From an uncultured Flavobacteriaceae bacterium (GTDB lineage Bacteria > Bacteroidota > Bacteroidia > Flavobacteriales > Flavobacteriaceae), in assembly GCA_943787365.1 (NCBI GenBank), contig CALSMD010000001.1:434001-498000 (forward strand): a DNA stretch of 64,000 nt. The letters run 5' to 3'. The notes beneath the pieces were generated by a model that had not been told where the DNA came from, did no database searches, and worked only from the letters and a program-made list of their open reading frames with translations. How positions within the stretch are numbered: the first letter of the stretch is position 1; every line of letters begins with the position of its first letter. Below are positions 1-7,907 of the stretch, piece after piece. A program made the translations under genes and the position numbers.

Positions 1-455
1 ACAACTTCAACAGCCTCCTCGCCTACTTTTTGAGCTATTTTATTAAGACCCTTTTCAAACAATTCAGAGACATAGGATGTTTCTGAGGAAGCATTCTCTT
101 TCCGATCCGTGATGATCGTTTCGAGTTCCGATAAAAACCCATAAGATTCGTTATTGGATTCTCCCCAACAGGTATCAGATCCTTTGTGACAAGTTGGTCC
201 TTGTGGCGTAGCTTGGATTAACAAAGTGTCCTTATCACAATCATTCTGTAAACTTTTGAAGCTTAGAAAATTTCCACTCTCCTCCCCTTTTGTCCAAAGG
301 CGTTGTTTACTGCGACTAAAAAAAGTCACCTTATTTGTTTCCAAAGTTTTGGCAACCGCTTCAGCATTCATATAGCCGAGCATTAAAACGGTTTTCGTGG
401 TTGCGTCTTGAATAATTGCAGGAATTAACCCGTCACTGTTATACTTGATGTCCAT
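1..455 (-). CDS. hisIE: HisIE, phosphoribosyl-AMP cyclohydrolase/phosphoribosyl-ATP pyrophosphatase (partial, C-terminus beyond window)
   Basis: Minus-strand reading from ATG at 455 gives [35 protein letters not shown]...; 1-nt overlap with the hisF stop; his operon context. Confidence 0.93.
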   Translation of the reverse strand, partial: MDIKYNSDGLIPAIIQDATTKTVLMLGYMNAEAVAKTLETNKVTFFSRSKQRLWTKGEESGNFLSFKSLQNDCDKDTLLIQATPQGPTCHKGSDTCWGESNNESYGFLSELETIITDRKENASSETSYVSELFEKGLNKIAQKVGEEAVEV

Positions 456-1210
456 TAGAGTCGTATGTTAATTTGATTTGTTTGTAATTCTTTTTTTAAA
501 TCGTTTATCGCAATTTCACCGAAATGAAATACACTGGCTGCCAAGGCAGCATCTGCTTTTCCTTCTTTAAACACCTCCACAAAATGCTGCATCGTTCCAG
601 CACCTCCAGAAGCAATAATCGGAATATTGACCGTTTCTGACAATTGCGCTAAGGCTTCATTTGCAAAACCTGTTTTAACTCCATCATTATTCATTGAGGT
701 AAATAAGATTTCACCAGCGCCACGGCTTTCCACCTCTTTGGCCCATTCAAATAAATCCAAATCTGTTGGGATCGTTCCACCTGCCAAATGCACCAGCCAT
801 TTACCGTCCACTTCCTTAGCATCAATAGCCACCACAATACATTGATTTCCAAAAGCATTTGAAAGTTCGTTAATCAACTCTGGTCGTTTGATAGCGGCAG
901 AATTCACACCTACTTTATCAGCTCCTGATTTTAGGAGTGTTTCAACCCCTTCTTTGGTACTCACACCGCCGCCAACAGTAAAAGGGATGTCTATTTGTTC
1001 TGCCACATTCCGAACCATTTCTATGGTGGTCGAGCGTGATTCTAAGGTCGCTGAAATATCTAAAAACACCAGTTCATCCGCGCCGTTCTCAGCATATTGT
1101 TTTGCCAAGGCTACCGGATCGCCTGCATCTCTGAGGTTTAAAAAATTTACCCCTTTCACAGTTCGTCCATTTTTAATATCTAAGCATGGAATAATTCGTT
1201 TTGCTAACAT
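455..1210 (-). CDS. hisF: Imidazole glycerol phosphate synthase subunit HisF
   Basis: [23 protein letters not shown]... HisF signature. Confidence 0.98.
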
Positions 1211-1212
1211 AA

Positions 1213-1941
1213 TTATGAACGGTTGAGTTGATAGGTTTCTAATTGTTTTAAACTGATATTCCCTTCGTAAATGGCTTTTCCAATAATGACACCTTCACAG
1301 CCTAAATCGGCTAATTTAGGCAACTCATCAAAGTGTGAAATACCCCCCGAAGCAATTAGTTTTACAGGATTCACTGTGGATAAAATCGTTTCGTATAAAT
1401 CAAATGAAGGTCCTTGTAACATCCCATCTTTCGCAATGTCAGTACAGATCACATAAGAAATGCCTTTTGTCACATAGTCCTTTATAAAACTGAGGACTTC
1501 TTTGTCACTTTCCTCCTGCCAACCTTGAATTGCAATTTTTTGATCCAAACAATCCGCACCTAAAATAATTTTATCAGCACCATAAGTTTCTAACCAATTT
1601 AAAAATAGCGAAGGATTTTTGACGGCAATACTACCCCCTGTGATCTGGTGTGCGCCAGAATCAAAGGCGATTTTTAAATCTTTGTCAGATTTTAAGCCCC
1701 CACCAAAATCAACCTTTAAATTTGTTTTAGTTGCAATGGATTCTAAAATTTTATGATTGATGATGTGCTGTGCTTTGGCACCATCCAAATCCACCACATG
1801 TAGATGTTCGACACCGACATCTTCAAACATTTTAGCAACTTCTAAAGGGTTTTCATTATAGACTTTTTTAGTGCTATAATCGCCTTTAGTCAGGCGTACA
1901 CATTGCCCGTTGATCAGGTCTATTGCAGGTATAATTCGCAT
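1213..1941 (-). CDS. hisA: ProFAR isomerase HisA
   Basis: [22 protein letters not shown]...; operon context. Confidence 0.98.
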
Positions 1942-1942
1942 A

Positions 1943-2524
1943 CTATAAGTTTAAAAAATTTTGTAATAATTGAGCCCCGTCTTTACTGCTTTTTTCAGGG
2001 TGAAATTGAACCCCATAAAAATTATCAGATTGCAAAGCCGCCGAAAAATCAAGTTCATATTCCGAGGATGCGATGGTTTGCTTTCCAATACTGGCGTAAT
2101 AACTATGAACAGAGTACATAAAACTGTTTTCAGGAATCCCTTTCAATAAATCTGACTGCAAATTCTGAATTGTATTCCATCCCATATGTGGGACTTTCAC
2201 AGTATTTGAAAACTGTTTCACATCCACATCAAATACTCCAAGCCCTTTGGTATTACTTTCTTCAGTATGATTGCATAACAATTGCATTCCCAAACAAATT
2301 CCCAGCACCTCTTGTTTGAGGTTTGGAATTAAGAGGTCTAATTTTGATTTCTTCAACATTTGCATCGCTTGACTGGCTTCGCCAACACCAGGGAAAATAA
2401 CCTTATCCGCACTTAAAATTTCCTCTACAGAATTCGAAAGCTTGGCATGAACGCCCAAACGCTGAAACGCAAATTGAATGCTCTGAATATTCCCGGCTCC
2501 GTAATCAATTATAATGACATTCAT
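1943..2524 (-). CDS. hisH: Imidazole glycerol phosphate synthase glutaminase subunit HisH
   Basis: [30 protein letters not shown]. Confidence 0.98.
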
Positions 2525-3661
2525 TTATTCTAAAGTTCCTTTGGTTGATGGTAAAATCATTTTGTTTACATCGCGTTTGACCGCCATTTTGATCGCTTTT
2601 GCAAACGCCTTAAAAATCGCCTCTATTTTGTGATGTTCGTTGCTCCCATCAGCTTTGATGTTTAAATTACACTTCGCCCCATCCGTAAAGGATTTAAAGA
2701 AGTGCATAAACATTTCCGTTGGCATTTTACCGACGTATTCACGTTTAAAATCTGCTTTCCAAACGAGCCAGTTTCTGCCCCCAAAATCAATGGCAACTTG
2801 TGCCAAACAATCGTCCATTGGCAAGCAAAAGCCATAGCGTTCAATACCTAATTTTGAGCCCAAGGCGGTGTGAAATAAATTCCCGAGTGCAATCGCCGTA
2901 TCTTCGATGGTGTGGTGTTCATCAACTTCTAAATCGCCTTTCACTTTAATATCTAAATCCATTTGACCGTGCCGCGCGATTTGATCCAACATGTGATCAA
3001 AAAAAGGAATTCCGGTGTCAATTTGACTTTGCCCTGTACCGTCTAAATTTAAAGTAATCGCAATCTTTGTTTCGTTGGTATTTCTCACAATGGACTCCAC
3101 GCGTTGCTTCGCTTTAAGGAATTCATAAATGGCTTCCCAACGGTTTGTTTCTAGAGCGATAAAAGGTGTTAATTCCTCTTGTTTGACAGAGATTTCATTT
3201 TCACCTAAATGCGTTTCGTCATTGATAAAAATGCCTTTACATCCTAAGTTTTTCGCCAGTTCTATATCTGTAAGACGATCCCCAATCACAAAAGAATTTT
3301 CTAAATCGTAAGCTTCTGAAAAGTATTCCGTTAACAAACCCGTTTGCGGCTTGCGTGTTGGTGCATTGTCTTTTGCAAAAGTACGGTCGATGAATTGTTT
3401 TTCAAAAACAATGCCTTCGTTTTTAAAGGTATCAAGGATGAAATTATGAACCGGCCAAAACGTGCTTTCTGGATATACTTCCGTTCCCAAACCATCTTGA
3501 TTGGTAATCATCACGATTTCAAAATCCAGTTCTTGACATATCTTTTTTAAATTAGAAAATACATCAGGGTAGAATTCTAATTTATCAAAGGAATCAATTT
3601 GTTCATCCGCAGGTTCACGGATGATCGTTCCATCGCGATCTATAAATAATACAGGCTTCAT
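2525..3661 (-). CDS. hisB: Bifunctional histidinol-phosphatase/imidazoleglycerol-phosphate dehydratase HisB
   Basis: N-terminal HAD motif (FIDRDGT) and C-terminal IGPD motifs ([20 protein letters not shown]). Confidence 0.98.
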
Positions 3662-4695
3662 TTTAGAGTCTTTAATAAGGTTAATAATTGTGTGTTTTCA
3701 GAAGGTGTCCCTACGGTGATTCTTAAGCAATTTTTACAATGCAATTGTGAGCTTCGGTTTCTGACCACGATCCCGTTTTTAATCAATTCATCGTAGCGTT
3801 TGTTGGCATCGTCCACTTTGATTAAGATGAAATTTGCTTCGGAAGGGTATATTTTTTCAATAAAGGAAAAAGCTTCAAATGCTTTTTTTAATCTCTTGCG
3901 TTCTTTTAAAATACGGGCGATTTGATCTGTAACTACGTCCTTATTTTGAAGTGCTTTGATCGCTGCTTCTTGCGTAAGTGTATTGATATTATACGGCGGC
4001 TTGATTTTGTTTAATACCGCAATAATTTCTTTAGAGGCATAACAAATTCCCAACCGAATCCCCGCCAAACCATAAGCTTTAGAAAGGGTTTGTGTGACTA
4101 TTAAATTTGGATACGCATTCAGCCATTGTGTCCAACTGCTTTTTTCTGTAAAATCAATATAGGCTTCATCGATGACGACCAGTCCTTTAAACGTGCTTAA
4201 AAGACGTTCTACTGCGGTACGATCGACGCTATTTCCAGAGGGATTATTCGGCGAACAGACGAACAATAATTTAGTATTTGGTTTTATGTTTTCTAGAACC
4301 GAATCAACCTCTAATTGAAAATCTGAGGTTAAGGGCACTTGAATATTTTCAATGGCATTCAAATTCGCCAAGACTTCGTACATCCCATAAGTCGGAGGCA
4401 ATGTGAGAATACTGTCTTGATTGGGTTCACAAAAGGCTCTGAAAATTAAATCCAAGACTTCATCGCTACCATTCCCCAAAAGAATTTGATTAGCGGCCAC
4501 TTCTTTTTGTTTTGAAATGAGCGCTTTCAAAGCCGTTTGCTGAGGATCTGGATATCGATTTAAAGTACTGTCAAAAGGATTTTCATTGGCATCCAAAAAC
4601 ACCATATCCGTTTGTAAGTCTTTATATTCATCACGTGCAGACGAATAGGGTTTCATCTGTTGTATGTTCTTTCGAACTAATTTATTTAGATCCAT
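3658..4695 (-). CDS. hisC: Histidinol-phosphate aminotransferase HisC
   Basis: [29 protein letters not shown]; overlaps hisB by 4 nt. Confidence 0.97.
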
Positions 4696-5980
4696 CTTCT
4701 ATAGATTTTAATCGAATTGTGACCGCGTTTTTGTGTGCCATCAGTCCTTCAGCTTCCGCCATAAGTTCGATGGTGTTTCCGATGTTTAATAAACCCTCTT
4801 TGGTAATTTCTTGAAAGGTGATGTTTTTCAAAAAACTATCTAAATTCACTCCTGAATATGCTTTTGCATAGCCATTTGTTGGCAAGGTGTGATTGGTTCC
4901 AGATGCATAATCGCCAGCACTTTCCGGCGTATATTCACCGATGAATACAGAGCCTGCATTGATGACATTATCAACAAAAAAGGAATTGTTTTCAGTACAA
5001 ATGATATAATGTTCTGGTCCATAAAAATTAATTAAATCAACCGCTTCTTGATCGGAGGCGACTAAAATCAACTTCTTATTTTCAAGAGCTTTTTCTAGGA
5101 TCGATTTACGATCTAAAAGCTGCGTTTGAATGCGTATTTGATCGGCCGTTTCTAAAAGTAGTTTCTCATCAGTTGACACTAAAACAACTTGACTGTCAAC
5201 GCCGTGTTCTGCTTGACTTAATAAATCCGAAGCGATAAAAGCAGGGTTGGCATTTTTATCTGCCATAATCAGAAGTTCACTGGGTCCTGCTGGCATATCG
5301 ATCGCCACGCCAAACTTGGTCGCCAATTGCTTCGCAACAGTGACATATTGATTGCCTGGACCAAATATTTTAGACACTTTAGGGATGCTCGATGTTCCAA
5401 ACGTCAATCCTGCAATGGCTTGAATCCCTCCTACTTTGATGATTGTTGTAATACCACACAAAGCGGCTGTGTATAGAATTTCGTTGGCAATCGCTCCTTC
5501 AGCATTTGGAGGCGTACATAACACACTATTTTTACAACCTGCAAGGGTCGCCGGTACGGCAAGCATCAATACTGTTGAAAACAAGGGTGCCGTTCCACCA
5601 GGAATGTACAAACCTACGGTTTCTATCGGGCGTTTTTCTTGCCAACACCGAACGCCAGGTTGTGTTTCTACATCCACTTTCATTGTTTTTTGGGCGTTGT
5701 GAAAGACTTCAATATTGGACTTGGCTTGTTGAATGGCTATTTTCAAATCTTTTGAAACCAAAGCTGATGCAGTCTCAATTTCTTCTTGAGACACAAAAAG
5801 AGTTTTTAAATCTACCTTATCAAATCGTTTTGTGTACTGCGCAATCGCCGTATCGCCTTCTTGTTTGACAGCTAAAAAGACCTCGTTTACAATGGTTTCA
5901 ATGGCCTCTACGGATTGTGTGGGACGTTGGAGAATTGCTTCCCAAATGGATCGCGCTGGATATTTAATTAAAGACTTCAT
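4682..5980 (-). CDS. hisD: Histidinol dehydrogenase HisD
   Basis: VGLYIPGGTAPLFSTVLMLAVPA, GPGNQYV, MPAGPSE. The track ORF extends to 6007; MKSLIKYP at 5980 is the likelier start (TAATG overlap with hisG). Confidence 0.96.
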   Translation of the reverse strand: MKSLIKYPARSIWEAILQRPTQSVEAIETIVNEVFLAVKQEGDTAIAQYTKRFDKVDLKTLFVSQEEIETASALVSKDLKIAIQQAKSNIEVFHNAQKTMKVDVETQPGVRCWQEKRPIETVGLYIPGGTAPLFSTVLMLAVPATLAGCKNSVLCTPPNAEGAIANEILYTAALCGITTIIKVGGIQAIAGLTFGTSSIPKVSKIFGPGNQYVTVAKQLATKFGVAIDMPAGPSELLIMADKNANPAFIASDLLSQAEHGVDSQVVLVSTDEKLLLETADQIRIQTQLLDRKSILEKALENKKLILVASDQEAVDLINFYGPEHYIICTENNSFFVDNVINAGSVFIGEYTPESAGDYASGTNHTLPTNGYAKAYSGVNLDSFLKNITFQEITKEGLLNIGNTIELMAEAEGLMAHKNAVTIRLKSIEDGSK

Positions 5981-6837
5981 TAGAGTACCATTTTTTCGAT
6001 TGGACATATAAGGATGCCTTGCGCACCTAAGGCTTTCAAATCGTCGATGATGTCCCAGAATTGGTTCTTATCAATCACACTGTGTACGGAGCTCCACCCC
6101 GATTCTGCTAATGGAAGTACGGTTGGACTTTTCATTCCCGGTAAGAGGTTGATAATGGCTTCTAAACTGTCATTTGGAGCGTTGAGCAATACATATTTGG
6201 ACGATTGTCCTTTGAGCACTGCTTCAATCCTAAATTTTATTTTATCTAAAATCGCTTTTTGAGGGACAGAAATTGTTGGAGAGACTGCCAAAACGGCTTC
6301 CGATTTTAGAATCACTTCTTTCTCTACTAGATTGTTTTTAAACAAAGTCCCCCCTGTAGAAACGATATCTACGATGGCTTCTGCCAATCCGATATTGGGT
6401 GCGATTTCAACAGAGCCATTAATGACATGGATGCTCGCTCTAATATTGTTTTTTTCTAAAAAGGCATTGACGGTATTGGGATAAGAGGTGGCAATTTGTT
6501 TGCCGTTCAAATCTTCGAGTGATTTGTATGCCATGTTTTTTGGAACGGCAATTGAAACTCGGCATTTTGAAAATCCTAACTTCGAAATATATTCTATGGA
6601 GTTTCCTTTTTCGACAAGAACATTGTTTCCAATAATAGCGGCATCTACAACCCCATCTTTTAAGTATTGTGGAATATCCCCATTACGGAGGTAAAAGACT
6701 TCGACAGGGAAATTAGTAGCCGTTGCTTTGAGTTGGTCTTTTCCATTATCAATGGAGATTCCAATATCTTTCAAAAGTTTCATGGAATCGTCTTTGAGGC
6801 GTCCTGACTTTTGCACTGCAATTTTTAAAGTATTCAT
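5980..6837 (-). CDS. hisG: ATP phosphoribosyltransferase HisG (long form)
   Basis: MNTLKIAVQKSGRLKDDSMKLL...; first gene of the his operon. Confidence 0.97.
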   Translation of the reverse strand: MNTLKIAVQKSGRLKDDSMKLLKDIGISIDNGKDQLKATATNFPVEVFYLRNGDIPQYLKDGVVDAAIIGNNVLVEKGNSIEYISKLGFSKCRVSIAVPKNMAYKSLEDLNGKQIATSYPNTVNAFLEKNNIRASIHVINGSVEIAPNIGLAEAIVDIVSTGGTLFKNNLVEKEVILKSEAVLAVSPTISVPQKAILDKIKFRIEAVLKGQSSKYVLLNAPNDSLEAIINLLPGMKSPTVLPLAESGWSSVHSVIDKNQFWDIIDDLKALGAQGILICPIEKMVL

Positions 6838-6853
6838 TCTTTATTAATTTAGT

Positions 6854-6888
6854 AAAAAAAAAGACCCGCTTGATTTCTCAAACGGGTC
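6854..6888 (-). terminator. Intrinsic terminator of the his attenuator
   Basis: RNA (minus): GACCCGUUUGA-GAAA-UCAAGCGGGUC followed by U9; 11-bp stem with one G-U pair, located between the leader ORF and hisG. Confidence 0.93.
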
Positions 6889-6921
6889 AGTATATAGTTT
6901 ATAATAGTATCCTACACAACT

Positions 6922-6981
6922 TTACCTCGCTTGATGGCCAGTTAAAATATGATGGTGATGGATGACTAAAAATAATTTCAT
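6922..6981 (-). CDS. hisL: his operon leader peptide MKLFLVIHHHHILTGHQAR
   Basis: 19 codons from ATG at 6981 to TAA at 6922; four consecutive His codons plus a fifth; directly upstream of the terminator and hisG. Absent from the ORF track because of its size. Confidence 0.92.
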   Translation of the reverse strand: MKLFLVIHHHHILTGHQAR

Positions 6982-7094
6982 TGTAATTATATTGAAAACA
7001 AATATTCAAAAAATAATCAGTGTAAACCTAACTTATTTTTAAGAATTATTGATTTAATAAAATAGGGTGTATAAATCAAGCTATTAATTAAAAT

Positions 7095-7907
7095 TTACTG
7101 GTTCCCTAAAATAATTGGCAATCCATTTTTTCCAGATCCAATGACAATCACTTTAGTATTTGGAGATTCAGACAACTTTACAGTCGCTTCAATTCCTTTA
7201 TCTTGTAAGATGCGATCGTTCAGAGATGCACTTAAAATTTTGTTTGCATCTGCTTTACCTTGTGCTTCAATACGTACTTTTTGAGCTTCTTTATCTGCAG
7301 TCACTAATCTAAATTCATATTCTAAAGATTCTTGCTCTTGCTTTAATTTACTCTCAATCGCATTTTTGATGGTGTTTGGAAGTTTTACATCTTCTACTAA
7401 AACACGCTTTACATTTAAAAATTGACCGTCTAATAAGTTTACGACTTCGTCAAGAATTTCTTGTTCGATCACATCACGTTTACTAGAGTACAGTTGTTCT
7501 GGCGTATAACGACCTACAACACTTCTTGCTGCTGCATTGACCGCAGGGCCTAAAAGTTCGTTCTCGTAATCCTCCCCTTTAGTTTTGATAAGGCTTCCAA
7601 GGTTTTTAAATTCTGGCTCGTACCATATGGTTCCGTTTACTTTAACTTCTAATCCGTTTACAGATAAAACATTCATTTCATCAGAGATGGATTGTTGTCT
7701 TACTTTATGGATTAACATACTGTTCCAAGGTGCTACAATTTGAAAGCCTTCGCCATATGTTTTGTCCGTTTGGATTCCATCTCCGAAACGCTCAAATAAG
7801 ACGCCTCCTTCTCCAGGTCCGATGGTCACCGCAGATTTTGATATTAAAAGAATAATAGCACCAATTATAAAGATAACTGGGAGTCCAATTTTAGGAAATT
7901 TTTGCAT
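7095..7907 (-). CDS. SPFH-domain/prohibitin-like membrane protein
   Basis: N-terminal TM; GEGGVLFERFGDGIQTDKTYGEGFQIVAPWNSM; coiled C-terminus with VTADKEAQKVRIEAQGKADANKI. Confidence 0.9.
   Translation of the reverse strand: MQKFPKIGLPVIFIIGAIILLISKSAVTIGPGEGGVLFERFGDGIQTDKTYGEGFQIVAPWNSMLIHKVRQQSISDEMNVLSVNGLEVKVNGTIWYEPEFKNLGSLIKTKGEDYENELLGPAVNAAARSVVGRYTPEQLYSSKRDVIEQEILDEVVNLLDGQFLNVKRVLVEDVKLPNTIKNAIESKLKQEQESLEYEFRLVTADKEAQKVRIEAQGKADANKILSASLNDRILQDKGIEATVKLSESPNTKVIVIGSGKNGLPIILGNQ

Follow-up and report, generated by a model that had tools for sequence, protein, structure and literature searches.

The window analyzed in this work, a stretch of 64,000 nucleotides from an uncultured Flavobacteriaceae bacterium, carries a complete and compact his operon on its minus strand, with the gene order hisG-D-C-NB-H-A-F-IE. 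The first gene, hisG (5980-6837, start at 6837), was identified by the NCBIfam model TIGR00070. The remaining genes, hisD, hisC, hisNB, hisH, hisA, hisF and hisIE, occupy positions 3 to 6007; hisD to hisF were named by NCBIfam models, and hisIE, which extends past the window edge, was recognized from an open ORF. The fused hisNB gene (2525-3661) encodes a bifunctional histidinol-phosphatase/IGP dehydratase. Ahead of hisG, on the same strand, lies the 19-codon leader ORF MKLFLVIHHHHILTGHQAR (6922-6981, ATG at 6981, stop TAA at 6924-6922), in which four His codons (6949-6960) form the putative sensor. It is followed by an intrinsic terminator consisting of a 26-nt hairpin of 11 bp (GACCCGUUUGA-GAAA-UCAAGCGGGUC, 6888-6863) and a U9 run (nine T, 6854-6862); a terminator scan found one terminator-like site in this region, where 0.2 were expected. 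The first-pass annotation had described precisely this succession of a His-run leader ORF, a hairpin with U9 and hisG; each of the three was confirmed in the minus-strand reading at the coordinates given here, and the same layout is seen in the relatives examined. The leader folds with a z score of -2.9. The genus alignment also contains a conserved stretch upstream of the leader (6999-7031, minus strand), made up of TTAGGTTTA at 7031-7023 and AATATTTG at 7006-6999. Promoters of Bacteroidota have -33/-7 elements, and by analogy with this general consensus the two blocks probably represent a promoter of that type, which would imply a short 5' end ahead of the leader ATG.

Within the leader, several strands can compete for pairing. 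Strand B (GACCCGUUUGA, 6878-6888) and strand C (UCAAGCGGGUC, 6863-6873) are the 5' and 3' arms of the terminator, separated by the loop GAAA. Strand A (UCAAGCGAGGU, 6924-6934; UCAAGCG-A-GGU) comprises the end of the leader ORF and the first base of the stop codon; it is a near-copy of strand C and would serve as the 5' strand of an antiterminator, with B common to both hairpins. This near-copy, and its pairing with B over about 10 bp with one bulged A, had been noticed in the first reading of the sequence, and the pairing is indeed composed of 7 + 3 bp around the bulged A. Another helix, P1, joins early leader codons (UAGU-C-AUCC, 6960-6968) to the sequence immediately 3' of the leader stop (GGAUACUA, 6912-6905), holding strand A in an inner hairpin.

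A His-run leader ORF was found upstream of hisG in all of the 80 closest hisG loci (L001-L080), as well as in 89 of the 90 additional Flavobacteriaceae loci from a family search, the exception (L090) being cut by a contig end; locus sampling is biased to genomes with a HisG nearest to that of the window, and some loci of both sets share an assembly. A covariance model, R1, was built from 45 diverse leaders. Matches at E values up to 0.1 were obtained in 108 of 245 genomes of the order and 116 of 392 genomes of the class, many of the weaker of which may be bare terminators. All 51 order- and class-level loci fetched from these searches are located directly upstream of hisG, with HisG identities down to 48%, and the distance between leader ORF and terminator is nearly fixed across the class. 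A covariance search of this kind had been proposed in the first-pass annotation, which had also made its reading depend on conservation of the His-codon run and of the competing pairing in relatives; the search recovered the element before hisG across the class, and both features are conserved. This form of his leader switch occurs across Bacteroidia and is absent from the RNA family libraries. In the genome from which the window originates, hisG is the only strong R1 site. The next-best match (C7:307150, E value of 0.07) resembles an ordinary terminator and has no His leader.

The leader ORF appears to be translated and to evolve as a coding sequence. In the alignment of leaders, all 105 gap runs in ORF columns are multiples of three, whereas gaps 3' of the stop are not, and the start and stop of the ORF are kept among relatives. 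Relative to a conserved Gln, codons -8, -7 and -6 encode His in 142, 144 and 143 of 145 leaders, respectively. The length of the His run varies, being mostly 3 or 4, and despite this variation the last His of the run is 6 codons from Gln in 138 of 146 leaders; the switch-proximal end of the run is fixed, and growth takes place on the opposite side. The UCAAGCG motif of strand A arises from codons that specify Gln-Ala-(Arg, Lys, Ser or Asn). Of 146 leaders, 140 use GCG for the Ala, as compared to 17% of the Ala codons in the ORFs of the window and 10% in 80 hisG genes. Background codon usage does not explain the strand A codons, pointing to a constraint at the nucleotide level inside the leader ORF. 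Individual leaders depart from this arrangement. That of L097 (MKFIQSHHHHHHICT, followed by the stop) ends before strand A and is a possible natural mutant of the switch; in L084 (QASCLCME, then stop) and L086 (QASCMCME, then stop) the ORF extends past strand A, so that a ribosome terminating there would be located 3' of A and not on it.

Both competing hairpins are supported by covariation. Among the 45 diverse leaders, A:B pairs are formed in 91.3% of cells, with changes on both sides in 4 of 11 pairs, and the observed measures were reached by 0 to 3 of 500 shuffles. B:C pairs are formed in 99.2% of cells, with both-side changes in 6 of 11 pairs, and the terminator is nearly invariant. In swap tests, 3 of 2,000 swaps for A:B and none of 2,000 for B:C matched the pairing of the leaders' own strands. 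Strands A, B and C are altered together in L141. In other families of the class they have changed jointly to CGUCUGAG (B), CUCAGGCG (A) and UCAGACG (C), the class-wide joint change being GUUUGA to GUCUGA in B, UCAAGCG to UCAGGCG in A, and UCAAACG to UCAGACG in C. Given the conservation, the choice of GCG, the spacing of His and Gln, the codon-sized gaps and the compensation in A:B, the arrangement of the three strands is not due to chance.

P1 is likewise maintained. Across the family, pairing of its own sequences exceeded that of swapped partners, with none of 2,000 swaps doing as well. Within the genus, the register shifts between species, and for this reason a swap test was used instead of strict column-wise pair counts; here 2 of 2,000 swaps equaled the own pairing, although the strands are AT-rich and individual swapped combinations can pair as well. 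The combinations TAGTCATCC/GGATACTA, TTATTTAT/ATAAATAA and AATATTTA/TAAATATT substitute for one another in different species, and the pairing of the window's P1 is kept by other sequences in L003, L231 and L240. The swap tests for P1, as for strand D described below, control for composition but only in part for relatedness. The first-pass annotation had seen only two competing hairpins. A:B and B:C stand, but the restriction to two does not, as P1 is a third helix kept by compensatory change in genus and family, and most relatives add a further partner strand, D, beyond the hairpins described for the window. The sequence 3' of the leader stop (AATGTATTG, alignment A1 columns 64-79) is kept in many genera even with a different P1 partner; it is possibly a polymerase pause or another signal.

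The element has a short ORF upstream of the his operon with four consecutive codons for the end product, His, and a covarying intrinsic terminator between this ORF and the first gene. Its parts, their conservation and covariation, the fixed spacing and the coding evolution of the ORF are established by the comparisons above. We conclude, with a probability of about 0.92, that it controls the his operon as a ribosome-mediated (leader-peptide) transcription attenuator; the parts of this reading that we infer are ribosome stalling, termination in vivo and the dependence on histidine. When charged His-tRNA is scarce, the ribosome would stall at the His codons, 14 nt short of strand A, leaving A free to pair with the emerging strand B; the terminator would be blocked and the his genes transcribed. 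When histidine is plentiful, the ribosome would reach the stop and sit on A, allowing B:C to form and transcription to end at U9. Ahead of the first ribosome, P1 could fold the leader with A inside.

Between the last His codon of the run and strand A there are 14 nt. When this codon occupies the ribosomal A site, a footprint of 10 to 16 nt leaves strand A entirely uncovered in 141 to 145 of 146 leaders. In the state calculation, a ribosome at the stop covers strand A, and before C is made, the probability of A:B is 0.88 with the ribosome stalled on the His run and 0 with the ribosome at the stop. In these models, antiterminator and terminator exclude one another, the former becoming available when the ribosome stalls and hidden when it reaches the stop. 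The A-to-B hairpin of the window has a predicted energy of -17.4 kcal/mol, compared to -17.7 kcal/mol for the terminator, these being equilibrium values for isolated RNA within an entirely computational body of evidence. Two predictions weigh against the attenuator reading. Once C has been transcribed, B:C is favored over A:B at equilibrium, and antitermination must therefore depend on kinetics, which is the usual situation in attenuators. In the absence of a ribosome, the predicted A:B pairing has a median of 0.07 in relatives versus 0.84 in the window's genus. P1 is therefore predicted to be a working protector at equilibrium in relatives, where it should favor termination without translation, and to be weak in the window's genus, where the untranslated state may not terminate.

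Of 200 leaders from outside the genus, 142 carry a strand D that is complementary to B plus the terminator loop. Carriers are found within L009-L226 (e.g., L158, L141, L195, L210, L217 and L225), and the strand is absent from the window and the genus-mates examined. In 91 of the 142 cases, the 3' end of D lies 12-16 nt before the hisG start. For 58 distinct sequences, pairing of D with its own B plus loop has -10.8 kcal/mol, versus -7.4 kcal/mol for swapped partners (z of -11.3, 0/5000); the loop-centered part of D alone gives a z of -9.2, and a control region in the same swap test gave no covariation signal. G-U pairs account for 43 of 425 pairs, which suits RNA pairing. Since D is transcribed after the U-run, it cannot affect termination there. 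Candidate roles are control of hisG translation, mRNA stability or a trans effect exerted by the terminated leader transcript, for which attenuator RNAs and leader peptides of Sinorhizobium offer a precedent (PMC7298713). A tentative and rather doubtful extension of the attenuator reading is that in most Bacteroidia B plus loop chooses among A (antiterminator), C (terminator) and D near the hisG start. Under such a scheme, translation of the leader would regulate transcription and, in escaping transcripts, hisG translation or stability, and the window's genus would have a stripped-down form from which D was lost.

Three other explanations were weighed against the attenuator. The covariation of D with B plus loop and its position before the hisG start invite the view that the switch acts mainly on hisG translation, with the terminator secondary, and some attenuators are known to sequester the ribosome-binding site instead of terminating (PMC9413887). 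This is very unlikely, given the lack of D in the window's genus and the near invariance of the terminator. In addition, only 12 of 146 leaders have an equilibrium probability of B:D above 0.5, with B:D beating B:C, and the equilibrium calculation lends no support to a mechanism based mainly on repression of translation by B:D.

The terminator might instead belong to the upstream SPFH/HflK-like gene, which has the same direction and ends at 7095, some 210 nt before it, the small His-rich ORF then being a product of chance. The nearly constant leader-terminator distance upstream of hisG throughout the class, the coding evolution of the ORF and the copying of C by A through codon choices beyond background usage make this extremely improbable. 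Hardly any more credible is a tRNA-sensing T-box, a riboswitch or a protein-binding leader in place of one sensed by the ribosome. Such systems do control his genes in other phyla (PMC9413887), but they need no His-run ORF in fixed register; no Rfam family matched the window at its gathering threshold, with only weak sub-threshold matches at a relaxed E value, and the T-box (RF00230) was not matched at its gathering score or at E values up to 5. The ribosome-mediated attenuator and its competition among A, B and C, as proposed in the first reading, draw strong support from conservation, codon choice, spacing and covariation.

The Rfam families of amino acid attenuators cover His, Leu, Thr and Trp, and a gamma-proteobacterial origin with very few transfers has been suggested for them (PMC3766115). 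A class-wide his attenuator of Bacteroidia indicates that switches of this type are widespread in that class as well and escape the RNA models now in use, and the covarying strand D raises the testable question of whether a single leader peptide governs transcription as well as translation. The closest published account is a Flavobacterium psychrophilum transcriptome study from 2021, which described a structured 5' element upstream of hisG, with no Rfam match and conserved in other genera, along with clues for leader-peptide attenuation at amino acid operons (PMC9723704). It concerns the same gene in the same family; the main text of that report gives no anatomy. This is the only report on Bacteroidota his attenuators that was found, as far as the parts of the literature consulted extend. 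Candidate His attenuators have been identified by comparative genomics in the Bacillus cereus group, Peptostreptococcaceae and Erysipelotrichales (PMC9413887). These also combine a His-run leader, of three to five codons, with a terminator/antiterminator, but they belong to another phylum, where they are called acquired or separately evolved, and are set apart from the present element by description.

Comparison with the Rfam His_leader family, suggested in the first-pass annotation, upheld a resemblance in logic but not membership: RF00514 does not match the window, and the relatives L183 and L209 reach 33.9 and 33.1 bits, respectively, versus a gathering score of 49. The Trp_leader family (RF00513) was rejected as well, with 15.7 bits (E value of 1.6) for the window versus a gathering score of 41. 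The element shares with enterobacterial hisL a His run in a short leader peptide, hairpins that exclude one another and an intrinsic terminator before hisG; unlike hisL, that of the window has fewer hairpins and an antiterminator strand inside the last leader codons. The His run of hisL has 7 codons, and that of the Bacteroidia element, mostly 3-4 codons, is shorter. The 1:2, 2:3 and 3:4 pairings of trp-type attenuators have their logical counterparts in P1 (with its inner hairpin), A:B and B:C, respectively. In the E. coli trp layout, the "2" strand is located 3' of the leader ORF stop, whereas here it is the end of the ORF itself. The working principle is that of the textbook his and trp attenuators, and the Bacteroidia form has an architecture of its own.
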